64,000 nt of DNA. It comes from Coriobacteriia bacterium (lineage in GTDB: Bacteria > Actinomycetota > Coriobacteriia > Coriobacteriales > UBA8131). Both the position numbers and the translations under genes were made by a program. The DNA lies in assembly GCA_009784945.1 (NCBI GenBank), contig WQXH01000002.1, positions 44,107 through 108,106 of the forward strand, given 5' to 3'. The number at the start of each line of letters is the position of its first letter. Position 1 is the stretch's first letter. The notes under the pieces were generated by a model. It saw only the letters and a program-made list of their open reading frames with translations, had not been told where the DNA came from and ran no database searches. Below, piece by piece: positions 29,740-49,217 of the stretch.

Positions 29740-29817
<78 letters not shown>

Positions 29818-29825
29818 CTAAACCG

Positions 29826-29869
29826 CAGGTCAGAGGCATATTTTGAGGCTTCTGACCTGTTTCATTTTA
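29826..29869 (+). terminator. terminator after tRNA-fMet
   Basis: Stem CAGGTCAGAGGC (29826-29837) with GCTTCTGACCTG (29848-29859), one G-T pair, followed by TTTCATTTT. Related hairpins follow the other two att copies, so each element brings a terminator at its end. Confidence 0.75.
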
Positions 29870-29887
29870 GCCCACTTTTTGCCCAGG

Positions 29888-29906
29888 TGAGCAATAAGTG
29901 GGCAAT
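29888..29906 (+). promoter_or_regulatory. probable integrase arm-type sites, left end of element A
   Basis: TGAGCAAT (29888) and TGGGCAAT (29899) are spaced 11 bp apart, one helical turn. The same octamer recurs at the left end of element B and beside the integrase start, which fits arm-type binding sites of a tyrosine recombinase. Confidence 0.55.
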
Positions 29907-29969
29907 CATTCAGGCAATCCAGAGAGATTCGATCGCTCGACTTCTCAAATCTTGGCAGAACTCAGCTTA

Positions 29970-30281
29970 TTAAGCTTGATAAATCACTTGGCCTGTCTTA
30001 AAAACATTTGCAACAAAACCACTCTTGTCATCTTGGCTATCCAGCAAAATCGGCTCTATGTTGTAGCTGATTCCACGACGCATACGCCAGAGCGAAGACG
30101 ACGTCTCTAGCCAGTCACCCTGGAAGCCATCAAAGATTACCGCAACATCAATGTCGCTATCCTCGCCAGCATTACCCTTTGCATGAGAGCCATAAAGCAC
30201 AATTGCTGCTGGTGATAGCGCTCTGGTCACCACCTCGGTATAGCGCTTGACCGTGCTATCTACTGTTCCTTTATCCAACAT
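29970..30281 (-). CDS. nucleotidyltransferase (MNT) of a HEPN/MNT pair
   Basis: 103-residue minimal nucleotidyltransferase. The GS-x10-D-x-D signature is intact: GSHAKG at 31-36 and D43/D45 in DSDIDVAV. In characterised HEPN/MNT (type VII) toxin-antitoxin systems this partner adds AMP to the HEPN toxin and silences it. ATG with GAGGAG 6 nt upstream. It overlaps the HEPN gene by 22 nt and is the last gene of a four-gene operon in element A. Confidence 0.88.
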   Translation of the reverse strand: MLDKGTVDSTVKRYTEVVTRALSPAAIVLYGSHAKGNAGEDSDIDVAVIFDGFQGDWLETSSSLWRMRRGISYNIEPILLDSQDDKSGFVANVFKTGQVIYQA

Positions 30282-30649
30282 AGCAACTCCTCAGTGCTGT
30301 CGAGCAGGACTTGGCATTTCTCTTGTGTGAGCGTCTTGTATATCTGATCCTTATAAGCTGGATACCGCGCTTGGATATTCAGTGGGTTTAGCTCTTCGAT
30401 AAAGTCCTGCTGCTCTTCACTCATTGTGTCAATTATACCAGCTCGCACAGCCAGCCTAGATAAATCGTGAACTTTTGGCGGCATCTCGCCCTCTTCACAG
30501 CTGCGAGCAATAACAGCCTTCAATGCCTTCTCAATTGTCTGGTGGCACATAAAGCCAACATAAAGATACCGCTTTGAATTCAGCATGGCCTTAGCAGTTT
30601 CAATATCATAGTCAGCTAGCTCAAACCAATATTCTGAATGGTCACTCAT
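30260..30649 (-). CDS. HEPN domain protein, partner of MNT
   Basis: 129 residues matching the small HEPN family: an N-terminal WFELADYDIETAKAML helix, CHQTIEKALKAVI and the PKVHDLSRLA region, then NPLNIQARYPAY. In this family the partner is usually a toxin RNase. I do not see a clean RX4-6H active site, so the chain may be a non-catalytic or adaptor version. It begins 39 nt after the KAP NTPase gene and overlaps the MNT gene. Confidence 0.85.
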   Translation of the reverse strand: MSDHSEYWFELADYDIETAKAMLNSKRYLYVGFMCHQTIEKALKAVIARSCEEGEMPPKVHDLSRLAVRAGIIDTMSEEQQDFIEELNPLNIQARYPAYKDQIYKTLTQEKCQVLLDSTEELLCWIKEQ

Positions 30650-30688
30650 AGGCTCTCTTTTCTGTTGTCACTATCGAAATACCAGCTT

Positions 30689-33600
30689 TCACTGCATGTC
30701 CTTTTTGCTATGCCTTATGATTGTGTACTTTTCTCCCTGCTCATCAAGAACATACCCTTTAATAAGTCCCCGCAGTCTAAATATTTCAAGTATGGTCTCG
30801 TTTGTGGTAGTTGCGTCAAACTTAGGTCGACTCCGAGCGTTATAGAGCTGTAAATAATTTTCTAATCCTGAGCTAGGCAGCCAGCATTTAATTTCTTCAT
30901 CATTAGCTGCGGGAGCAAGTGCGATCAAAAGCTTTTTTTTACTAGCAGCTGAGATCCGATGGCTGCCAAAGAGCAAGGCGACAAATCGTTTTTCAATAAT
31001 ACTCGATTGAGATATAACACTATCTATATTGTTTATGGCTAACTCAAGAATCGCCTCCTGGGTCTTCTCTGCGTAGCGTGTTGCGTGCCTAAGCAAAAAA
31101 TCAAAATCAGCAGAATCGTAGTTGTTATGAATAATATAAGCAGAAATCTCATCTGGAAGCTCCATAGCAGCAATGGGTATTGGGTCACCATCGAGCTTTA
31201 AGATTTCTATTTTTTCTGAAATGGTGATATCTGTATTCAATATCTTCATAGCCTCTTCATGTGAATACATGATTGTATCAGCCATCAAGCTGATGTATTC
31301 TTGTATATGCGCCTTTATGTAGTCAATAGCATAACCCTCGTAATGCTCGCGAATAAACTCGAGGGTTTCGCCTGTCATTTCAAGCTTGCCTGTTAAATCA
31401 AGTATTGAGAGTTTTTGCTGTGAGAGGCCTGCTACTTCTAGCGGTGAGAGTATGTAGTCAAATTGCTTAATGTATGCGCGATAAAGATTATCGTCAAGTT
31501 CTTTTGCAGTAACGAGCGCGTCAAAGAATTCTTTTTCTAAGATAGCATTGGAGAAATCTGAATTGCAAAACTCAACACCAAAACCTTTGGTATTTAAAAA
31601 GTCGATCAGTGCATCATCAAGCTCTGCGTTGCAAGCCGAGAAAAAGTATGAGACAATGTTTTGAGAGGTGGGCCTGACTGTTTTATGATTCTTCAGCAGC
31701 AATTGCCATAGATCCTCATTCTTAACATCTTGCAGGACAGGCACTTCTGTCTCAAGCTGTGAGATGTATCTGGCCATGTTCTCTTCATTAGCATCATTTT
31801 TATTGAGCAACGCAACAACACTAGGCGCAGCATCAATCATAGCCCCGCTAAAATCTTCAAAAATGGCATTAAAGAAATCATTAATATTTGAGTTCACATA
31901 GGCTGCTACCGAAGAATCAGCTTCTGTCATTAGTATTGTATAGGGCATCAAGCGAAAAGAGTCGAGATCGGGGCTACTATAAAACCTGCTAACCATTGCA
32001 CGCAAATTATGATAGTTAATCTCATAAGAATTGTTGTTATAAATTTTCTCTAGCAACAATGGGTTTGAATTATCGATTTTTATTGCTTTGAAGCACACAC
32101 CAAATTTCTTTATCCCTTGAGCGAGCAAGTCTTCAGGGTAAGAATTGTCTGTTGTCAGAAAGTTCGTGTCATTCGAAATTATTTGCACCAGAATCTCTTT
32201 TGATTTGTCATTCAAATAATCGAGTGTTAAGTGATCTCTGCCTTGAGCAGCTAGCAATGTGCGTGCGAACCTATCAACAAATCTAGCGCCCCTTTCACCG
32301 AATGGGAATGCGTCTCCATCTGCTAGATCATAGCAATCCGCAATAAAACTCTTCCATTCCAGCCCGAAAGCTTCAACAAGATTTGCTATGCAATTTGTAG
32401 TATTTCCATATCCAATAACAAACTCGAAGTGCTTAGAGCCCGAGAGCTGCTGTATGAACGTTCTCGTTTTTGTGACAAATATCTCAGTTGAAAGAAAATC
32501 AGCGAGCAGAAAGTCGAAAAGCTTATAGTTGAGAGTTTCCTCCTCCTCAAAAGCTAATGTAGACAGTCTTGATGCGACCATAGAGGGACGATCTAAGGGA
32601 TAAACGTGCTGTTTTGCCCTTTTGTCAGCAACACTCCGTAGAAATATCATATCTCTTCTTGAAATTGAATTCTCATAGAAATATGTCATGTAGTCTGCGT
32701 AAGTTTCATCAATATAGCCTTCTCGAACAAGATACTTTAGCAATGGAAAGTAGTGGCTGTCTTTGAGAGACTCAAAGCTTTCCTTTTTACCCGTTTCACT
32801 TTGGTAATTGCATTCAAAGAGTGTGTTAACGCTATCTCTCGTGATGATGTCTTTAAGCTTACTCTCTTCTAGCCTCATAGCCTCCAGCTTTGCCTCAGAA
32901 ATTTCTGAAGCAAGTAATTGAATGCGCTCTTTTCGATTGGCATCATTATCTGAGCTATAATTAAGACGCCTATCATATTCAGCGAGTAGCGCAGAATTTT
33001 GGCTGCTGCCGCGTTGCTGCTCAATTCTTTTTTTGCAGGTTTCCGGATCCACATAGTTTGTGTTACCAGATAATCTTGTATTGTAAATTATCGCTATTTC
33101 ATCGCTGAACAATGGTTCGTTTTTAATTCTTTCAAGCTCCTCAGTTTTAGAAGCAATTGCAGTCTGTAGCTCCTCTCTTCGGGCTGACACTAATCCTTCT
33201 CTTCCACTGCCATCGATTACCTCACTGATAAAGCCTCTGCCCAATTGCAATTCTGAAAAATCTCGTGGGAATAGATTCTTGTATGCTATCACTGCCAGCA
33301 TCTTATTGGGGTCCTGCTCAGTAGTAGTAAGTCTTGCTCTATAAACTGTAAACTCGTTACAAATATTTTGTAGAATACGCATATCATCTACATAAAGTGA
33401 AAGTCCTTGAAGAAACTCTTGGTCGATATCTGTGCTAAAACTATAGCCAATTTCTTGAAAGCACTGAATGAATTTATTGTACGAGTTTGAGCTGTCGATA
33501 ACTGGCACGACGGGGATAATAAAGTCAAAGAACTTCACTCGATCAGCTGTCTCAAAAATGTCGTCTCTCATCAGGTAGAAGAATCGAAGTCTTCTGTCAC

Positions 33601-34426
33601 CTCGCGAATTATTGACCAAGGTGTTGATTTCACGCAAACGCTCAAAGATCAAGCTCGATTCATATCTATCGATGTCTTCAAACACAATTACGTCAGCCTT
33701 TACCCTTTCGAAAAGATATAGAACCTCATTGAGATACTTGTCAAAAAAAGAACTCTCGTGCTCTTCGAATAATTCGATGCCAACACTACCTATCCCTGCT
33801 TTTTTTACAATATGCCTTTGTTCTTGAAGGCTTAGCAGCTTGTAAATGAAATACCCAGCAATCAGAAAAAAGGCCATCCCCGTAATAAAACGAGAGCCTG
33901 ATACAATGCTATCTAATAGCAAAAAGCTATGTGGTTCTGCATTTATGTTTGCCAATCCGAACCACTCATCAGAAAACAGAGTGTACAGCCCGAGTATTGC
34001 GCCTGCCACGAGAAGAATGGCAGCAAAGAGGTTTCGTTTTTTTGAAACAACTTTTTTTACACGAAAATTCGTGAGTGGTATTCTCTTGGGCGGTATTTGA
34101 TGTATTAATTGATTTAGTATTTTCCCTTCAAGCCTCGCTTCAACATCACCTTGGCTAACCCCCCTCTCACCCTCACCGCCATTGACGCTATAGTGGCTTT
34201 TATTTGACCTGAAATGTGCAAGTGAAATATGCACGAATATTTTGTTTGTGTGTTTCTTTTTGTATGTCTCTAGTATGCTACTTTTCCCCGAACCGTAGGA
34301 TCCAGACAACGCAATGTTTTTTATATTGTCATTCGCAAAAACAAATTCGAAAGCGTCTTCATATACACTAATATCAGCGTCATGTATGGGACTATGTGCG
34401 TAGAATTTCACTTTACCGTTATCCAT
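30689..34426 (-). CDS. KAP/YobI-type P-loop NTPase with membrane insertion
   Basis: 1245 residues. Walker A GSYGSGKSS at 42-50, two transmembrane helices at about 132-150 and 178-200, then Walker B VIVFEDIDRY at about 247-255. Membrane segments between Walker A and B are the hallmark of KAP NTPases; YobI-like proteins have the same plan. A coiled-coil stretch (about 420-560) and a long C-terminal region (600-1245) without recognised domain follow, probably a helical sensor region. The start overlaps the end of the ISP-type gene by 8 nt, so the two are probably made together. Role in the element is inferred to be defence. Confidence 0.8.
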   Translation of the reverse strand: MDNGKVKFYAHSPIHDADISVYEDAFEFVFANDNIKNIALSGSYGSGKSSILETYKKKHTNKIFVHISLAHFRSNKSHYSVNGGEGERGVSQGDVEARLEGKILNQLIHQIPPKRIPLTNFRVKKVVSKKRNLFAAILLVAGAILGLYTLFSDEWFGLANINAEPHSFLLLDSIVSGSRFITGMAFFLIAGYFIYKLLSLQEQRHIVKKAGIGSVGIELFEEHESSFFDKYLNEVLYLFERVKADVIVFEDIDRYESSLIFERLREINTLVNNSRGDRRLRFFYLMRDDIFETADRVKFFDFIIPVVPVIDSSNSYNKFIQCFQEIGYSFSTDIDQEFLQGLSLYVDDMRILQNICNEFTVYRARLTTTEQDPNKMLAVIAYKNLFPRDFSELQLGRGFISEVIDGSGREGLVSARREELQTAIASKTEELERIKNEPLFSDEIAIIYNTRLSGNTNYVDPETCKKRIEQQRGSSQNSALLAEYDRRLNYSSDNDANRKERIQLLASEISEAKLEAMRLEESKLKDIITRDSVNTLFECNYQSETGKKESFESLKDSHYFPLLKYLVREGYIDETYADYMTYFYENSISRRDMIFLRSVADKRAKQHVYPLDRPSMVASRLSTLAFEEEETLNYKLFDFLLADFLSTEIFVTKTRTFIQQLSGSKHFEFVIGYGNTTNCIANLVEAFGLEWKSFIADCYDLADGDAFPFGERGARFVDRFARTLLAAQGRDHLTLDYLNDKSKEILVQIISNDTNFLTTDNSYPEDLLAQGIKKFGVCFKAIKIDNSNPLLLEKIYNNNSYEINYHNLRAMVSRFYSSPDLDSFRLMPYTILMTEADSSVAAYVNSNINDFFNAIFEDFSGAMIDAAPSVVALLNKNDANEENMARYISQLETEVPVLQDVKNEDLWQLLLKNHKTVRPTSQNIVSYFFSACNAELDDALIDFLNTKGFGVEFCNSDFSNAILEKEFFDALVTAKELDDNLYRAYIKQFDYILSPLEVAGLSQQKLSILDLTGKLEMTGETLEFIREHYEGYAIDYIKAHIQEYISLMADTIMYSHEEAMKILNTDITISEKIEILKLDGDPIPIAAMELPDEISAYIIHNNYDSADFDFLLRHATRYAEKTQEAILELAINNIDSVISQSSIIEKRFVALLFGSHRISAASKKKLLIALAPAANDEEIKCWLPSSGLENYLQLYNARSRPKFDATTTNETILEIFRLRGLIKGYVLDEQGEKYTIIRHSKKDMQ

Positions 34427-37400
34427 CCTTGTCCGATCCTTTGAGCTCTTGTTGGATATTAATGGTTTCCGCGAGCGCGCCTGCTACGGTTTCAATGTGG
34501 GTGAAGTTGTTGATGTCAAGTTGTTCGCCTTTGTGGGATTTGAACCATTTTGGAAGAACCTGGTAGCCGCCGATGTAGTAATTCCAAACGTCCTCGGGGA
34601 TGCCGTGGATGCGTTTGTTCTTGTTGAGGTGGAGGACACCGTCTATGTACTTGATTGCACCTATTTCAAGGTCTTCGCTGTCGTTTGGCTCTATAGTCAG
34701 AGTTAATGGTTTCCTGTCTTGAAGCAAGTGTAACCTACGTAGGCGCGAGCCTGCATCTACATATTGCCAGAAGTGTTCTTCGCTCACATAGAAAGCGTCT
34801 GGATTGTCAATTGCTTTTGGGTCGGCAATAACGGGAACACGAGGAAAGTCGCGCTTTAGAAATTCAGCATACTTCTCCCGATAATGTGGATCATAGAGAA
34901 TTCCGTAGATGTAGTCGAAAACTTGTAATGGGTCGGCTTCAAATGAAAGATTATTAACGAGCTGTTTGAAATCGGTCTCATTGAAATTAGCTCGCCAATC
35001 GACCTCTATGCCTTGTGGGCGCAAATAGAGTGGGGCGACGTAGGCAGCACTTTTAGTTGGGTAATCGATAAAATGGCCATCAACAATGCTATTGACCGCT
35101 AAGGCTCCATCCCATGCTCTGTCAAAAACTGTTCCTTTTGGAAAAACTATTCCGATGTTAGGGCTATCTGAGAGTCCAGCACCTTTGTGTTCGAGGAAAT
35201 GCTGCATGACCTGGAAGACGGGATAAGCGATGAGCCCTTTTGTATTGCCTGTATAGAACATCCATCGTTGATCGAAAGGGCGATAGTGTTCTTCAATATA
35301 GACCCCATTCTCTGGGAAGTTCTCTTCTAGATCTTTCTTCGCAAATCCATATTTCCAGTCGCGAGAATCGTTCCCAAGACTGAACTGTGTTCTCGCAGCG
35401 CTCTCCTCCAGTGCTAAAAACGATTTCAACCTGCTCTCAAGTGCTTGTTTCGAGCAGTCGGATACAAATGAGTCCCTCTTCGTCATCATGCCAATGGCGT
35501 TTACGGTAAAAAGACTAGCTAGTGACACACCCTCCTCATATTCTGCTTTTCCGTGTACGCATTGGGGCATGAAAAATAGATTGTTGGTATCAAGTGGAAG
35601 CTTGTTGAACTCTACGGAATTATCTAACAATTGCCGAAGCTTGCCTTTGGACTCACCGATAAGGTCGGAATGAATCACATCTGCCCACAGCTCGTTGTCG
35701 CTGGTCTTAACAGCAATAATAATGCCCACTCCTTGGCGAATATTGAATACATTTTCATCAGGTAAGCCATCTGGGGCAATCTCTTTTTTGTTTGCATTGC
35801 CATGAAGATCAACTACATATATCCTATCAAAGGTTTTGAGAAGGCTTGCTCTCATGCCCGCTAGACTTGGCGAATCATAATAGGCGTGAGGCGAAATAAA
35901 TGCTAATACCCCCTCGCCATTTTTCTTTATCAGCGATTCAGCAAAATGAAAAAACATAATATAGTCATCTTTGAGGATTCCGCTCGTGCGTTTGTTAACG
36001 GTGCCGTCTGCATTGAATTTATATGAGGATGTGTCGTATTTATTGCCGCCGTGTCTGTTGTAGGGTGGATTTCCAATTATCACTTTGATGGGTCTCCGCG
36101 ATTTCCAAGTATCGGCTTTCCGAGCCTCCTCGGTTACTGCTCCAGAAAAGTCCTGCACTGCAAATAGGCTCATCTGATCGGCATCCTCAACCTGGGTGAG
36201 CGGTGGCGCAAGTGTATTGGTCAGAAATATATTACTGGCTGGAATTGAGGCGCTTGGAACGGTTTTATCCAGTGTCTCGTCAATGGTGCGGCGCACCTTT
36301 AAGTGTGCAACCACATAGCTTGTCATCATGATCTCAAAGCCTATAAGGCGGCTCATCAGCCCTTTATTATCAAGGATATAGTCCTTCCAGAACGCTTCTT
36401 TGCCGCCTGTGAAATATGTTTCGTGTATGTATCGAATTATCTCTGCATGAAAAGTGCCCGTTCCTACAGCTGGGTCAAGAATTGATACTCTCGGAACACT
36501 TCGCTTGATTGTGGTTTTTTCCTTCTTGCCCTCGTGATAAGGCGTAGAGCTCAGCTCTAACTCAAAGGTCTCGTTGTTGGACAGGCCACCTTCGATGCCC
36601 AAATCCTCAACTAGCACCTTGTCCACCATACGAACCATCCAGCGCACCACTTGATAGGGTGTATAGTACACACCGAGCGATTTCCTGAGCGCAGGATCAT
36701 AGTGCTGCAAGAACTCCTCATAAAAGTGGATGATGGTGTCTTTCTCATCGTCCAGGTCAAGCAAGGCTTCAATGTTGGCAATGCGGTACAGGTCGCAAAG
36801 GCGATTGATGACTGCCTCTAAGGTTGGATGTTGATTATTTGCGTTGGCAATATGTGAGAAGAAGAGTTTAAGCAGGTCGCTTTCTTGTCTGAGGCTGCCG
36901 ATTGCCTCAAAACGATTGAATGATTCAGAGGCGCCATTGTTGTAGCGGGCAATAAACAACCCGTATACCACAGTCTGTGCATACATATCAGCAAAGCTCA
37001 CCGTGTCAAGGAAGGGTCGAAGTTCCTCTTTTATCTTGCCGTAGAGAGAATATATCTCCACAAATAAAGGCTTGGTTCGTTGCTGCTCATCAATGACTGG
37101 CTGGCCGTTTCCATCGTCCTTTAGTATCCCAGTAATAACGCTACGAATAGTACGGGCATGAATAGCCATGTATTCTGCTAGCCTTGCTGAGCTTTTTATT
37201 TGGGCTGGATCCTTGAGCAGAAAGTCTTCAATTAAGCTGGAAAACAGATCGAGGCTTTCCTTTTTGAGTCTTAAGGTGCCTTCAACATATTCCATAAGAT
37301 GCACTGCTGAGTAGCGTACTGGCTCATCGTTTTCCAGCATCCAAAAACTCCAGGTAAGGTTGTCAGTAAGAATGATGTTGCCATAGCGCTTGGTTTCAAG

Positions 37401-37685
37401 CAGGACTTGCTCCTTGGCGCGCTCGTCTATTCCGCCAACCCTCTTTACTTCAATGCCAGCAAAGGGCTCATTTTCGCTTGTATTCTCTCCCTCGCGCCAA
37501 AGAAGGATGTCAACATTTTCACCTGCTGCGCCACTGCGTCCGCCTGACAGGTCTCGTGCTTCACAACCAAAATGCTTTACTAGTGCGATGATCGGCTCAT
37601 TGTAGGAGGTCTCAATGTTTCCTAATAAAAAAGCGTCGTTCACCCGCTTGAAGTACTCGGTTATAGCTTTAGATATGTCAGACAC
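34419..37685 (-). CDS. Type ISP-like restriction-modification protein without helicase domain
   Basis: 1088 residues from a GTG with AAGGAG 7 nt upstream. The N-terminus has a PD-(D/E)xK-like nuclease core (D59, E79-x-K81 in AGIEVK). A linker is followed by an N6-adenine methyltransferase with motif I DPAVGTGTF (404-412) and motif IV NPPY (539-542), then a Type ISP-type C-terminal specificity region (for example YDYIYGILYDPHYREKYAEF). Classical Type ISP enzymes are about 1500-1600 residues with a RecA-like helicase between nuclease and methyltransferase; I see no helicase motifs here. It leads the operon with the KAP NTPase, HEPN and MNT genes. It could act like a Type IIG enzyme or use the NTPase as partner. 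Confidence 0.85.
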   Translation of the reverse strand: MSDISKAITEYFKRVNDAFLLGNIETSYNEPIIALVKHFGCEARDLSGGRSGAAGENVDILLWREGENTSENEPFAGIEVKRVGGIDERAKEQVLLETKRYGNIILTDNLTWSFWMLENDEPVRYSAVHLMEYVEGTLRLKKESLDLFSSLIEDFLLKDPAQIKSSARLAEYMAIHARTIRSVITGILKDDGNGQPVIDEQQRTKPLFVEIYSLYGKIKEELRPFLDTVSFADMYAQTVVYGLFIARYNNGASESFNRFEAIGSLRQESDLLKLFFSHIANANNQHPTLEAVINRLCDLYRIANIEALLDLDDEKDTIIHFYEEFLQHYDPALRKSLGVYYTPYQVVRWMVRMVDKVLVEDLGIEGGLSNNETFELELSSTPYHEGKKEKTTIKRSVPRVSILDPAVGTGTFHAEIIRYIHETYFTGGKEAFWKDYILDNKGLMSRLIGFEIMMTSYVVAHLKVRRTIDETLDKTVPSASIPASNIFLTNTLAPPLTQVEDADQMSLFAVQDFSGAVTEEARKADTWKSRRPIKVIIGNPPYNRHGGNKYDTSSYKFNADGTVNKRTSGILKDDYIMFFHFAESLIKKNGEGVLAFISPHAYYDSPSLAGMRASLLKTFDRIYVVDLHGNANKKEIAPDGLPDENVFNIRQGVGIIIAVKTSDNELWADVIHSDLIGESKGKLRQLLDNSVEFNKLPLDTNNLFFMPQCVHGKAEYEEGVSLASLFTVNAIGMMTKRDSFVSDCSKQALESRLKSFLALEESAARTQFSLGNDSRDWKYGFAKKDLEENFPENGVYIEEHYRPFDQRWMFYTGNTKGLIAYPVFQVMQHFLEHKGAGLSDSPNIGIVFPKGTVFDRAWDGALAVNSIVDGHFIDYPTKSAAYVAPLYLRPQGIEVDWRANFNETDFKQLVNNLSFEADPLQVFDYIYGILYDPHYREKYAEFLKRDFPRVPVIADPKAIDNPDAFYVSEEHFWQYVDAGSRLRRLHLLQDRKPLTLTIEPNDSEDLEIGAIKYIDGVLHLNKNKRIHGIPEDVWNYYIGGYQVLPKWFKSHKGEQLDINNFTHIETVAGALAETINIQQELKGSDKDG

Positions 37686-37907
37686 TCTTGAACTCCTTAT
37701 TAGGCATTTGAAGCTTTTGCTTTCTTGCTTTCAGTTAATTATAGCGGCTTCTGCCAGCTCTTTAGCTGCCTTTCCACTCATCCCCTTTCATCTTCTCTAA
37801 CCATAGCTCTAGTACTGCCTTTCAATTGTGGAGACAGCTCTTTCATCCATTCGCCCAAAATACTTACTCGCTGTTCAACAGCATCGCAGTCGCGAACTTG
37901 CAGTCTA

Positions 37908-37943
37908 GTGGGACAGCGGGACAGGGGACAGCCTCCTGTCCCA
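37908..37943. repeat. REP-like palindrome, copy 1
   Basis: GTGGGACAG at 37908 and a second GGGACAGG can each pair with CCTGTCCCAC ending at 37943. The sequence family (GGGACAGG...CCTGTCCC) matches palindromes spread by REP-associated tyrosine transposases. It lies in the roughly 500-bp gene-free stretch 37686-38192 upstream of the restriction operon, in which I see nothing else. Confidence 0.6.
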
Positions 37944-38192
37944 CATTGCGGAATGAAAACGGCAGATCCAGCAAGTGTCCAGCAAGTAGAATCACGCCCA
38001 TTTTGGAATATAGCGCTTGGGTTTAGGGGCAGGCAACTGCTGAGACTCGCTGCCACGGTCTATCTTGTTCAAACCAGTGCCCTCAGCCCTCACCAAGATT
38101 CTGCATCAGTCTTGCAACAAGCTCAGATCCTGCTGGGGAACGTGGTAAAATGGTTACATATCACGACGCGGGCGATCCGAACGGAGAGATAC

Positions 38193-38538
38193 CTAAGGAG
38201 GACCCGCATTTTCCTTGCCCTCTGCTTTGGCAATCTTCCGCATAACATTCTCATCGTCAAGCTTTCCAAGGTATCTTGTACCGACCGCCTTGTATAGCGA
38301 TGATGAGCGCTTTTTGTTGGGCAACAGCAGTCTCTCGAAGCGATTCTCTTTTATCAGGTAATCGACCATCCGCTTGTAATCACCATCACCAGAGACGAGC
38401 ACCACTTTATCAAACTCCTCGCGCTCGTAGAGCTTCCTCATTACCGAGAACACAACATCAACATCGACGTTCCCCTTTTTCTTACCAACGAGATTCTTGC
38501 CGTGTTCACGAAAGACAAGGATGTATCCAAAAGGGACA
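38193..38538 (-). pseudogene. NYN-domain (LabA-like) RNase, 5'-truncated remnant
   Basis: The frame reads KNLVGKKKGNVDVDVVFSVM, then VVLVSGDGDYKRMVDYL and a short C-terminus, typical of NYN/PIN-like RNases with acidic residues in VDVD and SGDGDY. No start codon with the N-terminal strand is found. The frame runs back into the palindrome at 38531-38552, beyond which it has no similarity. So the 5' part was lost at the repeat junction. Confidence 0.65.
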
Positions 38539-38552
38539 GGAGCCTGTCCCTT
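38531..38552. repeat. REP-like palindrome, copy 2, at junction of two truncated genes
   Basis: AAGGGACAGG-AG-CCTGTCCCTT is a perfect 10-bp palindrome, followed by another TTGTCCC. It lies exactly between the truncated NYN gene (minus) and the truncated zinc-finger gene (plus), about 620 bp from copy 1. Confidence 0.7.
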
Positions 38553-38557
38553 GTCCC

Positions 38558-38887
38558 ATTTATGATGGCTACTACGGAGCTGCGTTCAACAACCTGCTTG
38601 AGCGGCTCTGGCATAACTTTGCGTGCGATGCCTGCAAGGGCATCCTGGGTGTCTGTGAATGCTGTGGGCAGCTCTTTGAGGCTGCAAATAAACGTAAGGA
38701 TGTAAAACGCTTTTGCTCAACTGAATGCCAGAGCTATGCCAAGTCTGCACGGCAGTACCGGAGACGCAAAATCAGTGAGCTTGCTGATGCTCTTGGCAGG
38801 AGACCTACGCTGGAAGAGGCCCAAATGGCTGCTGGCAGCTATGAGGTCTCCGAGAAGATGATTGATGCAGCATTGAAGAAGCCTTAG
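38558..38887 (+). pseudogene. zinc-finger protein, C-terminal remnant (element A copy)
   Basis: 110 codons homologous to the last part of the full protein at 45019-46230: YDGYYGAAFNNLLERLW, a finger with CECCGQLFEA...CSTECQSYAKSARQYRRRK, then LGRRPTLEEAQ and SYEVSEKMID. The first roughly 300 residues are missing, and upstream sequence has no similarity beyond the palindrome. It converges with the AlbA_2 gene, overlapping it by 4 nt, as the intact copy does by 6 nt. Confidence 0.85.
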
Positions 38888-40320
38888 TTGGTCAGATTGT
38901 TTTTGCTGCTACCAGCACGACGATACTTTTGTAGACGGCTATTTGGCTTATCAGGAATGGTTCTTTCGATTATCCTGGCGTCAAGCGCTGGCTGAATATA
39001 AGCTCTCAAGAAACTCATACGGTCGGAGAGCCCAAGCATTTGCATTAGCTCCTTTAGGCTAAACTCCTCTTCTCCCAACACCCTCAACAGCTTATTGACT
39101 TGAGGGGTAACTTGAGGGGTAACTTGAGGGGTAACTTGCTCTGCATCGTAGTTCATGTTCAAGAGAATCACTTTGAAATTGCGGCCGTCATCGATAAACT
39201 GGGGTTCGAACTCAGGTTTATAATTTGGCGCTAGCTCTGTACGCTCACGAATGAGCTTTAGTCCTGTGCCGCGTCGCTCCATCAGCTCCATTCTCTGGAA
39301 CAGGTCAGCAATTATCGGATTGCGTCTTTCGCTGGAGACCGTTGTGACATCCACATCTTCTGGCAACCTGCCGTCTACCTTGCTACCTGGTGAGGTAATC
39401 TCTAGCCTATCATCGAAAACAAAAATCGTTATCTCGGCTCCGCCAATAGTATAGTCGCGATGAATCAGAGCGTTGACCAAGGCTTCTTCAACTACGCGTT
39501 CAACGTAGCTGTGATTGGCAATCCTACTGGGTCCAGTAATCTTCTTCCATGGCTTGAGATTGTTCCTGTCTACGAAGGCAAGCCCTTCTCTCAACAGCCT
39601 TAAGAGGCAGCCTTCGAATTCATGATCATCTAAAACTTCCTCAGATGAGCTTGACTTATGCAAACCCTTCCATCGTGTGCAGAAGATGCGGTTTGTCCTA
39701 AGTATCCACTGGTCTGCAAGAAGCACTCCAGCATTTGTCAGGAAGCCGTCCTTTGTAATTAGGCCAAGCGATTCAAAGTCGCTTTCCTCAAAAGTGCTGC
39801 GCGTTCGCTCATAGTAGGTAGCTTTGAGAATATCGAAGCTATAATCTTCCTTCTTATGGGTTGAGATCAACTCATCATAATGCGTGTTTGAGCCGCGCAT
39901 GGCTAGAGAACGTAATTGCTGGCCCGATGCGGGAACCGAAGAACTGCCTGACCGAATGAATGCCTGTTGAACACCATCTCTCATGTAAAAGTATGGGCAA
40001 TCATCCCCTGGAAACACCTCGAGAAGAACAATTACTTTGCCCTCATGCTCAACAACATCAACAGAATAGTCTGGCAGTGGGTCTATGCTGTTGCCAATCA
40101 GCTCACTTAACTTGTCTACAGTAAGCTGCGGGTTACAAATGCCTACCATTGCTCCATGATCATCCACCCCAATCAGAATCTTCCCTCCTGAAGAATTAGA
40201 AAACGCGCTGACTGATTTCAGCCAACCCTTTGGGCGCTCCCAATTAAGATTCGCTTTGAATTCTCTGTTATCCGTCTCAACACGTAGTAGGGCAGCTATA
40301 TCCAACTCATCTGCGTTCAT
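38884..40320 (-). CDS. AlbA_2 (schlafen-like) ATP-binding/HTH protein, element A copy
   Basis: 478 residues. The N-terminal AlbA_2 domain has TDNREFKANL and SSGGKILIGVDDHGAMVG. A middle HATPase_c_4-like domain has VVEEALVNALIHRDY, DRLEITSPG, NPIIADLF and RGTGLKLI. Three tandem TPQV repeats (12-bp units at about 39099-39135) then lead to a C-terminal winged-helix region. Such proteins are usually DNA-binding regulators. The ATG forms a 4-nt ATGA overlap with the decayed integrase frame upstream, the same coupling as at the element B integrase. B carries a paralogue at 46225-47691. Confidence 0.82.
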   Translation of the reverse strand: MNADELDIAALLRVETDNREFKANLNWERPKGWLKSVSAFSNSSGGKILIGVDDHGAMVGICNPQLTVDKLSELIGNSIDPLPDYSVDVVEHEGKVIVLLEVFPGDDCPYFYMRDGVQQAFIRSGSSSVPASGQQLRSLAMRGSNTHYDELISTHKKEDYSFDILKATYYERTRSTFEESDFESLGLITKDGFLTNAGVLLADQWILRTNRIFCTRWKGLHKSSSSEEVLDDHEFEGCLLRLLREGLAFVDRNNLKPWKKITGPSRIANHSYVERVVEEALVNALIHRDYTIGGAEITIFVFDDRLEITSPGSKVDGRLPEDVDVTTVSSERRNPIIADLFQRMELMERRGTGLKLIRERTELAPNYKPEFEPQFIDDGRNFKVILLNMNYDAEQVTPQVTPQVTPQVNKLLRVLGEEEFSLKELMQMLGLSDRMSFLRAYIQPALDARIIERTIPDKPNSRLQKYRRAGSSKNNLTN

Positions 40321-40395
40321 TCATCTGCCTTTCCTCGAAAAACCATGTCTCCTATTGTATCAGCTGCGACGCGATCGTTATTACCTGTGCAATAG
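40317..40395 (-). pseudogene. tyrosine integrase, C-terminal remnant (element A)
   Basis: Minus-strand translation gives DRVAADTIGDMVFRGKADE followed by TGA, matching DRTAADTIGDAIFGNGK near the end of the element B integrase. The nucleotide match (CTATTGTATCAGCTGCG on the plus strand) is close. No upstream integrase coding sequence remains before the next gene at 40421. The stop overlaps the AlbA_2 start as ATGA. Confidence 0.8.
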
Positions 40396-40420
40396 ATGTG
40401 GCTTCTTCAACAATCCCTGC

Positions 40421-40720
40421 TCACAAGATTTTATATCGCCAGCCTTTTGATGCCATCTTCTCGGAAATCAATTCACTAACAACGCCATCGGGCCCCGAGC
40501 AATACCAATCCATGTAGTTGCCATGACACAGCATGGACGCTATCAACGATCCGGCTGAGCGGAAGGAGTAGCCTACTTCGCTATTATCCTCATCAGATTC
40601 TTGACACCAATCAACATTTGCCAGAGCGGACCAGAGCTCTGTACCAAATTCCTCATCTTCTCTGAGTCGCTTCGTGAATAGCTCTCGAAAGTCATCCTCA
40701 AATTGTTGTCTATAGTCCAC
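40421..40720 (-). CDS. small acidic hypothetical protein
   Basis: 99 residues from a GTG with AGAGGAG 4 nt upstream. Acidic N-terminus (FEDDFRELFTKRLREDEEFG), then WSALANVDWC, YSFRSAGSLIASML and DWYCSGPDGVVSELI. No family recognised; the pattern looks like a compact soluble protein. It occupies the space where the A integrase body would have been. Confidence 0.55.
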   Translation of the reverse strand: MDYRQQFEDDFRELFTKRLREDEEFGTELWSALANVDWCQESDEDNSEVGYSFRSAGSLIASMLCHGNYMDWYCSGPDGVVSELISEKMASKGWRYKIL

Positions 40721-40913
40721 AGCGCTCCTCTATGTTCTGGAATTTTCTTTGATAGGATTGTAGTCATTAAGGTCATAATTGTCATTGAACTTGAAGTTCA
40801 ATGACAAGATCAGCGAAAAAAGGTACTGTATTCTGCAGCTGTTGCGCCAAATGGCCTCAGCATGCAAATTGTTTAACTACAACAGCGTAGCTGCACAACG
40901 ATGATTGAAGACA

Positions 40914-41288
40914 ATGACACAAGCTATGAGCTCTACCAAGCAAGTCTATTATCAAACAAGTAGCCTTAGTCTGGACGATAAGAAGTCTTTTCTCCGAGAG
41001 TGTTTAGATCTCAGTTACGATTGGTGGGTCGACAAACTCGATTGCTCAGAGTCTTTTGCAAGGCAAAAAGTCGACTGCTCCTTCGAGGCAATTCTCGATA
41101 GGCTAACCAAAAAGTCTCACTTTGTAGTCATTAACCGGAGGCGCTGGGGCGATTTTGAAAACAGAGAGCACTTTGAGGTTGGCTTTTGCTCAATGGAAAG
41201 CCCAATCGATTACTTTCTGTTCATCGAAATTGAAAGCGCAAAGATGCCGCAGATTCTCGCTCACTACGATCTAAAACCAATGCACTAA
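40914..41288 (+). CDS. hypothetical protein
   Basis: About 124 residues from the ATG at 40914; TTG 40905 and ATG 40926 are alternatives and no start has a strong ribosome site. Contains DDKKSFLRECLDLSYDWWVD, a basic NRRRWGDFENREHFEVGF and a hydrophobic SPIDYFLFIEIE. No family recognised. It reads towards the right end of element A, in the last gene position before att copy 2. Confidence 0.5.
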   Translation: MTQAMSSTKQVYYQTSSLSLDDKKSFLRECLDLSYDWWVDKLDCSESFARQKVDCSFEAILDRLTKKSHFVVINRRRWGDFENREHFEVGFCSMESPIDYFLFIEIESAKMPQILAHYDLKPMH

Positions 41289-41425
41289 TCGTATTACAGC
41301 CTTGGTTTAGACAATCACTGGATGAGAAGCGTCTTATCTTGCTGAATTTGTTCATGTGTAAATGTCATGCTTTGCCTGCACTTTAGTGGTTTTCGATTAT
41401 GAATTTAGTCTAGACACTATAAGAA

Positions 41426-41526
41426 CCCCGCGACCAACTAAACCGCAGGTCAGAGGCCATTTTTAGGACTTCTGGCCTGTTTCAAATTTGCCCACTTATA
41501 GCCCAGGTGGGCAATAAGTGGGCAAT
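41426..41526 (+). repeat. att copy 2 plus left end of element B
   Basis: Colinear with 29806-29906 over 101 bp without gaps, about 88 identical by hand alignment. The first 32 bases, starting at CCCCGCGACCAA, are identical. It includes the terminator hairpin and two TGGGCAAT sites at 41508 and 41519, again 11 bp apart, plus an inverted TTTGCCCA at 41487. Only the last bases of the tRNA are present, so it is a junction between elements and not a tRNA gene. Confidence 0.85.
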
Positions 41527-41595
41527 CGCCTCGTGGGTATGGCAACCAAAAGTGGGAGCTGTGGCACAGTTTTGAATCTTAGACTGCTTGTCGTC

Positions 41596-42938: not shown

Positions 42939-43036
42939 AACTCCTCACTTTTCAACACTCTGATTTGACGCTTCATGATGATCTCCGTTGTCAATTTAGG
43001 TATCCCTATTCTACCTGATAGCTCTTCGTTTTGATT

Positions 43037-44083
43037 TCATCTCAATTGTTCACTGTGCCGAATTAACTTTTGATCTTTATTCCTGGAATCTAGCTTCAGT
43101 TCGCGGGACGCAATGGCTTCGCACTCGCGGATTTGGGTTCGTTGCGTTTTGAGTTCACAGCCGATGTCTTTGAGTCGTTGGCGAGCTTCGGCGGCTTCGG
43201 TTGCATCGTCTGCCTTGGCAATTATCTTGTAGAGTTTGTTGCGCTCCTTGATGAGAGGTGGGATTCTTTGCTGTTGCTGGAGCTTGAATTCGTGCAGCTT
43301 AGTGAGGGTGTCAAGGGTGTTGGTGATGAGTATCTCGGTTTGGCGGAGGATTATCTCCAGCATCATGACTTCTGCACTGAGGTTGGGCGTGAGTCTCTTG
43401 GCGGGGATTGTTGAGTATGCCTGAATCAATAGGGCGTAGTGGTAGTGCTGACGAATAAGTCCTTGGTAAGGGAACTCTTCTGCCTTCTTGCTAATCTGGC
43501 GGATGATTGCTGGTGACAGAGTAGAGTGCTTTGTGTAGCCGCGGCGTGACATCTCTTTAGTGGTATGCCTCCCCTCTTTTGTGGCTTTCCAGTTGCCGTA
43601 GCTCTTTGTTTTCTGCTTTTCTGGTTGCTTAATGACGCTGAGCGAGTACTCGCGGCAAAGGCGGTCGCTTTCTGCACGGAAGGAGCGGTAGGCAGCTTTA
43701 TCGTGGTTGTAGCGAAGGCCGTCTGTTTGCGAAACCGAGTTCCACATGAAGTGATTGTGGATGTGGTTTTCGTGGTCGGTATGGGTGGAGACAAGGACTT
43801 GGAATCTGTTGCCGAGGGTTCGCTCTGCAAGCTTGACGCCGATTTCATGGGCGGTTATCGCGTTGACTTCATCTTCGGCAAATGATTGGTAAGCGTGGTA
43901 TGCGGTGGTGCCGCCTGTCTTGCCGTACTGCGCTTTGACGGCTTCCATTTCCATCACAGCAGTTTCCAGCGAGCAGTTGATACCTGACACCAGGAGGCCG
44001 CCAGCTGTCTTTTCAGGATTGGAGATGTAATTGATAAGCTTGGGCAGCGAACCGGTCACTTTCCAGATTTTTGTGGTGGCCAT
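43037..44083 (-). CDS. MOB-type relaxase, shortened
   Basis: 348 residues from an ATG sharing one base with the mobC stop (TAATG). The catalytic Tyr is probably Y19 (INYISNPEKT), and the metal-binding triad is HTDHENHIHNH at 101-111. These place it in the MobA/VirD2-like group. After KATKEGRHTTKEMSRRGYTK the protein moves directly to a C-terminal helical region (LIRQHYHYALLIQ). Relaxases of this kind usually have about 100 more residues here, so an internal deletion is possible. With MobC it should nick an oriT in element B; no type IV secretion genes are present, so transfer would need a helper. Confidence 0.82.
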   Translation of the reverse strand: MATTKIWKVTGSLPKLINYISNPEKTAGGLLVSGINCSLETAVMEMEAVKAQYGKTGGTTAYHAYQSFAEDEVNAITAHEIGVKLAERTLGNRFQVLVSTHTDHENHIHNHFMWNSVSQTDGLRYNHDKAAYRSFRAESDRLCREYSLSVIKQPEKQKTKSYGNWKATKEGRHTTKEMSRRGYTKHSTLSPAIIRQISKKAEEFPYQGLIRQHYHYALLIQAYSTIPAKRLTPNLSAEVMMLEIILRQTEILITNTLDTLTKLHEFKLQQQQRIPPLIKERNKLYKIIAKADDATEAAEARQRLKDIGCELKTQRTQIRECEAIASRELKLDSRNKDQKLIRHSEQLR

Positions 44084-44484
44084 TATTCGAACTCCCAATG
44101 CTCAGAGTCATCGTCTAGCATCTCTCTAGATTCCGGGTCAAGCCCGGAATGACGGATGGTGAGCTTGTCTGGCTTGATAATCTCATTGGTGATGTCTTGG
44201 ATTGCTTGTCGGAGCTCCTTGATGGCTGCCTCAATCCGTACAGCATCCATCTCACCAGTGCAGTGGACTCGGTGGGCAAGCTGATTCAGATTATTGCCAA
44301 CATAATGAATCTCTCGCATCATGCGATAGTAGTCAGTCGGTGGAACCTCCTTGGGAACCATGCCGTTGATTAAGTGGCGGAGGTATGCCGAGCGAGTCAA
44401 ATTGCAACGGCGGGCAAGAGTGTCAAGGCGGCGAAGCTCCTTCAGGCTGAGCCTGAGATTCACCTGTTCATTGCGCGTTCTCAT
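44083..44484 (-). CDS. mobC: MobC-type mobilization protein
   Basis: 133 residues from the ATG at 44484, with AAAGGGGG 7 nt upstream; the frame opens further to 44565. An RHH-like N-terminus (RNEQVNLRLSLKELRRLDTLARRC) and the MobC block (MMREIHYVGNNLNQLAHRVH) are clear. MobC helps the relaxase open oriT. The C-terminal IRHSGLDPESREML is encoded by a dispersed palindrome (44130-44150), so the tail looks like an insertion in frame. Confidence 0.82.
   Translation of the reverse strand: MRTRNEQVNLRLSLKELRRLDTLARRCNLTRSAYLRHLINGMVPKEVPPTDYYRMMREIHYVGNNLNQLAHRVHCTGEMDAVRIEAAIKELRQAIQDITNEIIKPDKLTIRHSGLDPESREMLDDDSEHWEFE
44130..44150. repeat. dispersed palindrome inside mobC 3' end
   Basis: ATTCCGGG-TCAAG-CCCGGAAT, 8-bp perfect arms. 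Sequences of this kind are common interspersed palindromes in many bacterial genomes and typically give HSGLDPESR when translated, as here. Confidence 0.7.
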
Positions 44485-44565
44485 GAGCGTGCCCCCTTTG
44501 TTGGCATGGGGAAAGCGGATGTGGATAGACAAAAGGCTAGCCATATCCATTGCTTGCCAGAACAA

Positions 44566-46230: not shown

Positions 46231-47691
46231 AACAGGTAATATGACTATCCAATGCCCAGCGCGAACCGATCCTTCCCTCGCCAGATTTCCACTTGCCTTC
46301 AATGATTCAATATCTCTGAGGACTGTCCTCTTGGCTACACCCATTTCCTCTGCAAGAGTCGTTACGGTTTTTTTGGGATCATCGGTTAAAGCCCCCAGTA
46401 TTTCTTTTTGACGATAGGAAAAACCGTTCAACTGACCATCATTGGCATCAGTGACATCTTTGATGACATTGGTGACATCTTTGGTGACATTGGTGACATT
46501 CGATACTAAAAAGGCATCTTCCCCACTCTCACTTTCTTCGATATCTGCACCGACAACCTCATTGGGCTCAACTGGCAGCTCTCGGCGAAAAAAGACCACG
46601 GAGAAGCCCTGCTTCTTCTTTTTGAACTCGTAGCGCACCCCTGCTGCATTACACTCATCGGCAATTTTCTTGAGTCCAGTGCCGAATCCTTCGATGTCCT
46701 TTGAATAATACATTATCTGGGCTAGAAGCGGATTTCGGTGTATAGGCTGTTCATCCCGCATGATGAAGTCTTCGGGAGAGTAGCCCTCTGGAAAGGCACC
46801 TGGATTATAAACCTCAATGCGATCGCTGAATATGACCAGCTCATTGATTTGTGGCACGAAGTAATCTTTATGCGCATATGAATTAAACAGTGCCTCGCGC
46901 AAAGCCTCGATGGGTACTTCTGGTATCTCTTCTCGCTTCATATTACCTTCGAGAACAACTCGCCAGCGTGTGTTGCGGCGAAAGTACCACTCGGCGGCAT
47001 CAACAAGCTGATCAATAGTTCCGCTCTGTCTGTCAATATCAAGAAAGGTCAACCTCTCTTTCGTGGCAAATACGGCCATTTGGATCTCCAGATTCGGCTT
47101 CTTGCCAAACATCACTACTGCAGCATTCCTGGGTGCGTCTTTCTCTAACAAATGGAGCTTGTTGAGCGTACCTCTAAGATCGGAGAACTTAAAACTCAGG
47201 CGTCCTGCTTCGTTAGCCTTCTTCATATATGAGCGGACAAAATTCGTATTCATTTCAGTCAACGCTGAATCAGAAATTGATGTATCCCAAATTGATACCA
47301 ATCCTTGCTTTTTCTTGAAGAATTCTTCGAGTGCCTCTGGTGCTAGTTGGCGGCTCTCGTCTGCAACGCGGATGTAGGCTTTACTGTCTGCGAAGTATGG
47401 GACATTATGGCCTTCGAACACTACTCGAATGCACTCTTTGTTGTCAATTTTTACCATCTCGACTGTCGGAATTATTTGAGGCTTAATCCTCGTTCCGATA
47501 GCTTGACTGACATCGCGAAGGCTTGAGGTCGACACCATTTGCCCAACAACTGTCCCATCAGGCTTAATCCCAAAGTAGAGTTCGCCTCCTTGGTGCTTAT
47601 TGAGGATGGCGACAATATCTTCAAGAGCAACATTGAGTTCTCCCGTTGTTTTCTTGAACTCGAGTACCTCAGACTCCATACCAAAGATCAT
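46225..47691 (-). CDS. AlbA_2 (schlafen-like) ATP-binding/HTH protein, element B copy
   Basis: 488 residues. The N-terminal AlbA_2 domain has ESEVLEFKKT and NKHQGGELYFGIKPDGTVVG. A GHKL-like middle domain has PIEALREALFNSYAHKDY, DRIEVYNPGAFPEG and GFGTGLKKIA. A Val-Thr-rich repeat (VTNVTKDVTNV) then precedes a C-terminal winged helix (KKTVTTLAEEMGVAKRTVLRDIESL). The ATG forms ATGA with the integrase stop and has AAAGGA 5 nt upstream, so it is translated with the integrase. It probably regulates the element. Confidence 0.82.
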   Translation of the reverse strand: MIFGMESEVLEFKKTTGELNVALEDIVAILNKHQGGELYFGIKPDGTVVGQMVSTSSLRDVSQAIGTRIKPQIIPTVEMVKIDNKECIRVVFEGHNVPYFADSKAYIRVADESRQLAPEALEEFFKKKQGLVSIWDTSISDSALTEMNTNFVRSYMKKANEAGRLSFKFSDLRGTLNKLHLLEKDAPRNAAVVMFGKKPNLEIQMAVFATKERLTFLDIDRQSGTIDQLVDAAEWYFRRNTRWRVVLEGNMKREEIPEVPIEALREALFNSYAHKDYFVPQINELVIFSDRIEVYNPGAFPEGYSPEDFIMRDEQPIHRNPLLAQIMYYSKDIEGFGTGLKKIADECNAAGVRYEFKKKKQGFSVVFFRRELPVEPNEVVGADIEESESGEDAFLVSNVTNVTKDVTNVIKDVTDANDGQLNGFSYRQKEILGALTDDPKKTVTTLAEEMGVAKRTVLRDIESLKASGNLAREGSVRAGHWIVILPVS

Positions 47692-48977
47692 GGCTGTCCT
47701 TTCTTGTTACTCTTTCCATTGCCAAAAATCGCATCCCCTATTGTATCAGCTGCGGTGCGATCATTTTGGGCTATCGCATGGGCGTAGATGTCCATGGTGA
47801 GGCTTGCGCTGGAATGACCTAGGCGATGTTGGACGGTCTTGATGTCTGCGCCGCTGCCAATAAGCAAAGTGGCTTGTGTGTGACGGAGCTCGTGGAAGTT
47901 GAAGCCGCGGTAGCCGCTACGCTTGACGTGTCTGGTACCACTTGGGTCGGTGTAGATTTCCTCATGCTCAAAGTAGCCGAGACCGTGGTCAGCAAAGAAG
48001 TTGCGGCGCCAGCGCGAGAAGTTGTTGGGGTCGGTAATAGCGCCCAGCTCATTGGTGACAATCGGTGTGTCTGGCGTCTGCGCTATCATCATTTCCACTA
48101 ACTGTTGACGTTGTAACTCCTTCCAGTTGCGGAGGTATCTGGCTGTCTCCTCGTCTAGCCCAATCCAGCGATGCGCATTATCGCTCTTTGGCTCCCTAAG
48201 AGTGAGGTCGTTGGTTAGTTGTTGGGCGATATAGATGCGTTGGTTATTAAGATCAACATGCTTCCAGGTGAGCCCTAGTGCCTCTCCCCTCCTGATTCCA
48301 GTAGCCAAGCCAATCCAGAGTGCCGTTATTCTTCCGCAGGGCTCTTCCTTCCGTAAGTCTTCAGCCAGCTTCGTTGCCTGTTTCAGCGTGAGACTCTTGC
48401 GCTCAGCGCTCTTTGGTCTTGCTAGGTCGACGGAGTCGCAGGGGTTCTTTGTGACTATCTCCTCCTTGACCGCTTGCTTCATGACCTGTCGCAGTTTTGC
48501 ATGGAGCTTGTGTAGCTGGCTTTTGGTCACCTTGCTATCGGTGCGTAGCTTTGCGTAGACTTCGTTAATCATTCCCACAGTGAGCTTGTCGATGCCTACT
48601 TCTTCAAATAGCTCCTCAATCCAAGATGTTTCTATCTCATCACGCTTAATGGTCAAAGGAGACAAGTTGCCTAGGCTTTTGCGCTGCTCTTGGAACTGAC
48701 GGGCATAAGCTCCAACGGTAAGCTTGCGCCCATAATGCATGGCGACACTCTTTAGCTCCTCTTTATAAAGCTCCATTTGACGTCGAGCCTCAGCCTTGTT
48801 TCCATATACCGTTCGCATTGGTGCCTTGAGGTAGCGGTTTGTCTTAGGATCCTTGCCGAGCCTGGGGCGAATACGATAGACCTGCCCGCGTTGGACCTCA
48901 ATAATCTCGCCCTCACCGCGGCTGGCTCGTTCCTTGTTCTTCTTCGGCTCAGTATCCTTTGGCTTAACTCTTGCCAT
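47688..48977 (-). CDS. int: tyrosine recombinase/integrase of element B
   Basis: 429 residues from the ATG at 48977, with AAAGG 5 nt upstream; the frame is open to 49079, across the arm sites. It has a Lys-rich N-terminal arm-binding domain, a core-binding domain, and a catalytic domain with R in ATGIRRGEALGL, HELRHTQATLL, LGHSS and the nucleophile Tyr in MDIYAHAIAQ. All catalytic residues are present, so it should be active. It reads away from the right att site at 49168, standard for tRNA-targeting elements. Confidence 0.93.
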   Translation of the reverse strand: MARVKPKDTEPKKNKERASRGEGEIIEVQRGQVYRIRPRLGKDPKTNRYLKAPMRTVYGNKAEARRQMELYKEELKSVAMHYGRKLTVGAYARQFQEQRKSLGNLSPLTIKRDEIETSWIEELFEEVGIDKLTVGMINEVYAKLRTDSKVTKSQLHKLHAKLRQVMKQAVKEEIVTKNPCDSVDLARPKSAERKSLTLKQATKLAEDLRKEEPCGRITALWIGLATGIRRGEALGLTWKHVDLNNQRIYIAQQLTNDLTLREPKSDNAHRWIGLDEETARYLRNWKELQRQQLVEMMIAQTPDTPIVTNELGAITDPNNFSRWRRNFFADHGLGYFEHEEIYTDPSGTRHVKRSGYRGFNFHELRHTQATLLIGSGADIKTVQHRLGHSSASLTMDIYAHAIAQNDRTAADTIGDAIFGNGKSNKKGQP

Positions 48978-49024
48978 GATTGCCTTTCTCCGCATATTCG
49001 ATAGTACTAGCATATCATCATTGG

Positions 49025-49065
49025 TGGGCAATCTCAAGAGGATAAGTGGGCAATAAATGGGCAAT
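49025..49065 (+). promoter_or_regulatory. three phased arm-type sites beside integrase gene
   Basis: TGGGCAAT at 49025, 49047 and 49058, spaced 22 and 11 bp, all on the same helical face. They lie just upstream of the integrase ATG and match the octamers at both left ends. Likely integrase arm sites, and a place where integrase could repress its own gene. Confidence 0.65.
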
Positions 49066-49109
49066 CTGTTTGACATCACAAAATATCATGCGGCACTAAC
49101 TGGCAGTTT

Positions 49110-49167: not shown

Positions 49168-49217
49168 CGGGCTCATAACCCGAAGGTCATTGGTTCAAAT
49201 CCAATCCCCGCGACCAA
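49168..49217 (+). repeat. att copy 3 (right end of element B, partial tRNA-fMet)
   Basis: Identical over 50 bp to the 3' part of tRNA-fMet (29768-29817). The 5' part of the tRNA is absent, so it is not a functional gene. It is followed by CCGCAGGTCAGAGGC and GCTTCTGGCCTG, another version of the att-associated terminator. Confidence 0.9.

Follow-up and report, generated by a model that had tools for sequence, protein, structure and literature searches.

Four genes of known defence families as cargo of a likely mobile element at a tRNA-Met in a Coriobacteriia bacterium

The four-gene locus and its protein families

A 64,000-nt window of a Coriobacteriia genome (GenBank assembly GCA_009784945.1, contig WQXH01000002.1) was analysed for a group of putative defence genes at positions 29970..37685. 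Four closely packed genes lie there on the minus strand: a restriction-modification (R-M) gene (37685-34419, 1088 aa, GTG start), a KAP/YobI nucleoside triphosphatase (NTPase) gene (34426-30689, 1245 aa), a HEPN gene (30649-30260, 129 aa) and a minimal nucleotidyltransferase (MNT) gene (30281-29970, 103 aa). All four reading frames are open. The R-M and KAP genes overlap by 8 nt, a 39-nt gap separates KAP from HEPN, and HEPN and MNT overlap by 22 nt; the open reading frame (ORF) coordinates thus reproduced the layout given in an initial annotation, and its assignment of the genes to Type ISP-like R-M, KAP/YobI, HEPN and MNT families with a link to defence was borne out by Pfam and PADLOC. Co-transcription is likely from the tight packing. 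Promoter and terminator scans came close to chance (17 found against 15.3 expected, and 8 against 6.8) and neither support nor exclude a single transcript. The GC content is 40-47% across 30-38 kb, compared to 45-53% in the remaining 2-kb blocks of the window.

Pfam, PADLOC, PDB profile, fold and motif evidence identified the R-M protein (34419..37685, minus strand) as a DrdV-like, helicase-free, single-chain enzyme of Type IIL/IIG. The protein contains the Pfam families Type_ISP_C, N6_Mtase and Eco57I, and PADLOC assigned it to REase_MTase_IIG (E 4.6e-188). Its domains run from an N-terminal PD-(D/E)xK nuclease motif through a helical connector and an N6-adenine methylase to the Type_ISP_C specificity domain, with an E-V-K nuclease motif and the methylase motifs DPAVGTGTF and NPPY. 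Aligning the protein with 21 relatives (22 sequences) showed the nuclease D, E and K and the core of both methylase motifs to be invariant. No helicase family appeared among the Pfam matches at E<=1, and a pattern search found neither a Walker A motif nor a DEAD/DEAH-like box, in agreement with the initial description of a gene with nuclease and N6-methyltransferase motifs and no helicase.

DrdV (PDB 7lo5/7lvv; Type IIL / IIG(S)) is the best relative of known structure by both sequence and fold. It gave the best profile match (7lo5, E 1.3e-61) and the top fold match, with residues 1-1071 of the model covered in one alignment, and it has the same single chain and domain plan and likewise no helicase, although the identity is about 20% (19-23% in structural alignments). 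The Type IIL/IIG layout of nuclease, helical connector, methylase and target recognition domain in one chain without a helicase is present, the nuclease part being recognised by its motif and one loose alignment. Of the Type ISP features, the N6-methylase and the ISP C-terminal specificity domain are present, whereas the helicase-like translocase between nuclease and coupler is absent (1088 aa vs. 1578 in LlaBIII). The Type ISP enzymes LlaBIII and LlaGI have homologous methylase and specificity domains, and their coupler region aligned in the fold comparison, but in them an ATP-driven translocase separates the nuclease from the coupler, and PD-QXK is the typical motif; the R-M protein has neither. 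The initial annotation had supposed that the enzyme lacked an ATP motor that it needs. Because DrdV is itself a helicase-free single-chain enzyme, no borrowed motor is needed. An R-M gene of nearly the same size on the Borreliella burgdorferi plasmid lp56 (1086 aa vs. 1088; tblastn 29.8% over 92% of the query) is annotated as type ISP, but differs from ours in having no annotated KAP or HEPN/MNT neighbour within 4 kb. The gene bbq67, which we take to be WP_010883927.1, is located on this plasmid.

The KAP protein (30689..34426, minus strand) is a Tmn-like, KAP/YobI-type P-loop NTPase, as judged from Pfam, PADLOC, motifs and the fold of a relative (P0050). It matched YobI-ATPase (PF20693) with E 7.1e-117 and 391 bits against a cut-off of 27. 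Walker A lies at residue 42 and Walker B at 246, and hydrophobic segments at 131-153 and 180-198 correspond to the two predicted membrane helices that mark KAP/YobI proteins and that had been noted between the Walker motifs from the start. A long C-terminal region follows, which is predicted to be helical. The PADLOC match to Tmn (E 1.5e-73) aligned, in the best of three stretches, residues 12-440 of 1245 with Tmn residues 32-470 of 1273. Tmn, a KAP-family phage-defence protein, has in common the NTPase domain with two membrane helices, but the best matching stretch is the first third of our protein alone, and Tmn acts as a single gene. The 119 YobI-type relatives listed (PF20693) were 35-47% identical over 84-100% of the query and occur in Bacillota, Desulfarculales and others, with no visible difference in domain plan. 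The literature searched yielded no study of what YobI itself does.

By profile, no PDB sequence relative of the KAP protein was found at E<=1; a single-sequence PDB search gave two matches alone (E 0.84 and 1.6), and Foldseek found no match to its model at E<=0.001. The model of P0050 resembled AAA+/STAND proteins, with Avs3, Avs4 and NLRs among its matches. The AAA+/STAND class comprises switches and also some motors. No SF2 (superfamily 2) helicase name was noticed among the 50 VIA-align matches listed for this model, an unlisted family being still possible. One published account places KAP NTPases in operons with Orc/CDC6 proteins and implicates them in anti-phage immunity (PMC10853773).

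The HEPN protein (30260..30649, minus strand; PF05168, E 1.6e-26) is the only PF05168 match in this genome at E<=0.001. The MNT protein (29970..30281, minus strand, 103 aa) matched PF18765/PF01909 (Polbeta/NTP_transf_2) and PADLOC PDC-S09 (E 2.7e-11), and keeps at residue 31 the GSX10DXD motif, described in PMC11586414 as the MNT motif of type VII toxin-antitoxin systems. Overlapping HEPN and MNT genes and GSX10DXD are common to this pair and the type VII system HepT/MntA. The pair differs from HepT/MntA in three respects. The MNT score against NCBIfam MntA was 45.6 bits, under the cut-off of 60. The whole 129 aa of the HEPN protein contain neither Rx4-6H nor the RX4HXY catalytic/acceptor motif; HEPN proteins without the motif can nevertheless be toxic, as PMC3710099 states. 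Lastly, HEPN precedes MNT on the minus strand, which reverses the usual type VII order, the MNT gene being nearly always 5' of HEPN according to the same paper (PMC3710099). The initial view of the pair as a toxin-antitoxin module thus held for the families, but not for a standard pair, given the missing Rx4-6H and the reversed order.

Genomic neighbourhoods of the R-M and KAP genes

The association of KAP genes with relatives of the R-M gene (hereafter ISP genes) was investigated from both sides. For KAP, 250 stretches matched either of two peptide patterns; a KAP relative is encoded in 87 of them, from which the 80 best were taken, and 53 of these 80 loci extend 3.3 kb or more in both directions. 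One of the 80 loci (L026) contained an ISP-type ORF, a 126-aa C-terminal remnant just 3' of KAP. A whole-genome search of 50 of the 80 KAP-locus genomes found an ISP match at E<=1e-20 in three, one of them the L026 piece. For ISP, 17 regions were assembled from 14 of the 27 other genomes of the phylum with an ISP match and three regions from two genomes of KAP loci (G462 and G463; L005 and L006), and none of the 17, several of which are short contigs, contained a KAP gene. Recurrent ISP-KAP adjacency was not seen in the genomes examined. A conserved ISP-KAP operon was rejected on these counts (a fragment in 1 of 80 loci, 3 of 50 genomes, 0 of 17 regions), and with it the initial proposal of one conserved system, which had been staked on the two large genes occurring together.

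Moreover, the closest relatives of the ISP gene and of the KAP gene each occur without the other. One ISP relative is 74% identical to the R-M protein, but none of the 120 listed KAP relatives matches its partner as closely, the best being 46% identical. The first-ranked KAP locus (L004) contains a partial methylase and a Schlafen gene and no ISP gene. ISP genes were present in 28 of 396 genomes of the phylum, our own included (E<=1e-20), and KAP in 2 of 100 genomes of the window's relatives, again with our own; the second has pieces only, one with an internal stop. The class of the L006 genome yielded one ISP match in 196 genomes at 1e-50, which was the L006 genome itself, and the class of the L026 genome none in 391 at E<=1e-100, a blank result from which nothing follows. 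Viral contigs contained two ISP loci without KAP and six KAP loci without ISP. Plasmid records held 65 ISP and 608 KAP matches; of these, the neighbourhoods of three ISP and three KAP matches were inspected. No gene annotated as KAP was present near the three ISP matches (at one, an ATPase of the AAA family is encoded 2.8 kb upstream), and none annotated as ISP near the three KAP matches, one of which is unannotated. We recognised no description of an ISP/IIG-KAP-HEPN/MNT system in the open-licence literature searched.

A same-strand ORF lies within 400 nt of KAP upstream in 50 of the 80 loci and downstream in 28. We scanned 34 upstream and 20 downstream neighbours, mainly the longer ones; short ORFs, a 208-aa upstream ORF (L082), one choice of the 222-aa class and broken KAP pieces were left out, although a piece in L054 was included. 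A fixed KAP partner of any kind was rejected, no family having matched more than two scanned neighbours. No HEPN or MNT relatives were found among the KAP neighbour ORFs of the 80 loci at E<=10.

Three KAP loci showed further detail. At L051 (8046-12694), 23 nt separate the start of KAP from a preceding N6_N4_Mtase gene, a methylase of a different family. At L026 (13988-16305), the ISP remnant belongs to a mixed defence cluster in which an AAA_21 gene and an RloB gene are also KAP neighbours. At L005 (460-14324), the KAP gene is broken into several frames and lies beside a cluster with DUF499 plus Swt1-like HEPN, AAA_21, and DUF1156 and helicase C-terminal/NOV_C proteins, the DUF1156 protein matching methyltransferases weakly.

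Probable tandem integrative elements at a tRNA-Met

The four genes adjoin a tRNA-Met (CAT) at 29740..29816 (plus strand), the predicted integration target. A 50-bp direct repeat that spans its 3' part (29768..29817, plus strand) recurs as an exact copy at 49168..49217 (plus strand), beside a tyrosine integrase gene (47688..49079, minus strand; PF00589); these are the putative left and right attachment (att) sites. A MobA/VirD2-type relaxase and a NikA/MobC mobilisation protein are encoded at 43037..44565 (minus strand), which together with the integrase and the direct repeats of the tRNA 3' part makes up the set expected of an integrative mobilisable element. Between the two sites, a partial att-like copy at 41426..41527 (plus strand) is 89% identical to 29806-29907 over 103 columns and may mark the junction of two elements.

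The two halves have in common this sequence at their ends, a gene of the CxxC type (shortened on the left; 64% over 106 aa), a Schlafen/AlbA_2 gene and a probable integrase remnant. The left Schlafen/AlbA_2 protein (38884..40320, minus strand; Pfam) is a distant homologue of the one at 46225-47691 (tblastn 24% over 341 aa, E 3e-15). Next to it, 40338..40400 (minus strand) probably encodes the remnant of an integrase C-terminus (21 aa, 52%, E 0.003), and the DNA at 40348-40379 matches 47734-47765 at 87.5%. The simplest reading of these sequences is that two related integrative elements lie in tandem at one tRNA-Met (29768-49217). The left element, which appears to have lost its own integrase except for the remnant, would then carry the four genes, and the right one the relaxase, MobC and integrase genes.

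A genome of the same genus (G003; L160 8338-9857) encodes an integrase 85.5% identical over 427 aa, with an adjoining att sequence 95% identical over 62 columns; its 11-kb contig had no match to the four genes. In another genome (G001), the flank of a tRNA-Met resembles ours (85% over 130 nt); on this 12.6-kb contig none of the element genes tested had a match.

Elsewhere in the window, an Rfam DUF3800-XI RNA (62 bits; 50215-50261, minus strand) lies directly upstream of a DUF3800 gene (49519-50187). Direct repeats were found at 8238-9648 (312-nt spacing) and 5740-6026, the former group suggesting a repetitive protein gene.

Interpretation of the four-gene cargo

We regard the four genes as cargo of a likely mobile element that probably comprises separate defences and not one machine (a probability of roughly three in four). 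The families are known and the assortment is new. If so, the R-M enzyme would recognise an asymmetric site and methylate adenine in one of its strands. Where the DNA is unmodified, enzyme copies bound at several sites would assemble and pair their nuclease domains, and cleavage would follow at a fixed distance with no need for ATP. The KAP protein may be a membrane-bound switch, a role proposed because of its relation to Tmn and the AAA+/STAND-like fold of its relative's model. Its helical C-terminal region might sense a phage trigger, upon which the NTPase would arrest the cell. HEPN/MNT could be a toxin-antitoxin-like or stabilising pair, in which HEPN would either work without the classical RNase motif or have lost activity.

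Several observations weigh against separate modules. Selection by two peptide patterns biases the KAP contexts, and several ISP-centred regions are short: downstream sequence of at least 1.5 kb is available in 12 of the 17, and 3.7 kb on either side of the gene in only 4. The matches of the KAP relative's model also include AAA+ motors such as dynein. These motors and the short ISP-centred regions slightly reduce the confidence in separate defences. On the part of the enzyme, the structure model was of moderate confidence (predicted local distance difference test, pLDDT, 74; predicted template modelling score, pTM, 0.47), and its nuclease part was spanned by one alignment alone (root-mean-square deviation 15.4). 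The 8-nt overlap suggests coupled translation of the ISP and KAP genes, L026 retains its ISP piece beside KAP, and KAP lies beside other DNA methylases at L004, at L051 and on a S. horikoshii plasmid (H44). Comparison of the 119 best KAP with the 119 best ISP relatives showed four coinciding longest-contig sizes against 0.9 expected. Two of these contigs could not accommodate both genes, and the one of 9,901 bp is weak evidence. The remaining one, a longest contig of 20,556 bp common to P0011 and P0210, has a chance expectation of about 0.003; at least one further co-localisation is therefore likely, and this metagenome contig probably holds both genes. The ISP-KAP pairing is thus rare, not unique.

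In an unlikely alternative, ISP and KAP would be coupled, the KAP NTPase standing guard over the R-M enzyme and arresting the cell once restriction has failed or been blocked. The gene overlap, the likely co-localisation together with the L026 remnant, the methylases adjoining KAP in L004, L051 and H44, and the STAND-like matches (Avs3, Avs4, NLRs) would all fit such a unit. In addition, backup toxins beside R-M-like systems are known: in BREX, auxiliary or backup modules include HEPN domains, which are in some cases fused to MNT (PMC12839542). The neighbour counts (a fragment in 1 of 80 KAP loci, 0 of 17 ISP regions) and the closest relatives of each gene, which occur without the other, argue against it. 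Somewhat less probable still is a fuller version, a rare recurrent immune unit of two genes. Translational coupling would here link a motor-free DrdV-type enzyme, which cuts first, to a transmembrane KAP/STAND NTPase that watches over it and arrests the cell if a phage blocks or escapes the enzyme, with HEPN/MNT as a third layer.

We consider it about as improbable as the guard arrangement that the four genes are decaying cargo without present function. Of its integrase the left element retains just a likely remnant, its CxxC gene is shortened, and HEPN has no Rx4-6H, but all four frames are open and the motifs of the nuclease, the methylase and the nucleotidyltransferase as well as the Walker motifs are intact. 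The initial model, in which KAP supplies the missing ATP motor of a helicase-less Type ISP enzyme, is very improbable and was rejected on the helicase-free DrdV match and the absent ISP-KAP association (the same-sized lp56 relative has no KAP neighbour, and KAP relatives are mostly without a nearby ISP gene and vice versa); nothing found points to it, the AAA+/STAND-like model of the relative being weaker evidence.

With separate defences as the preferred reading, a striking-looking four-gene defence operon resolves into known modules that lie side by side on a likely mobile element. The comparison with DrdV further suggests that helicase-free enzymes of ~1050-1100 aa annotated as 'type ISP' are better understood as DrdV-like. 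Were the KAP protein instead a guard of the R-M enzyme, the locus would represent a new coupling of restriction to abortive infection.

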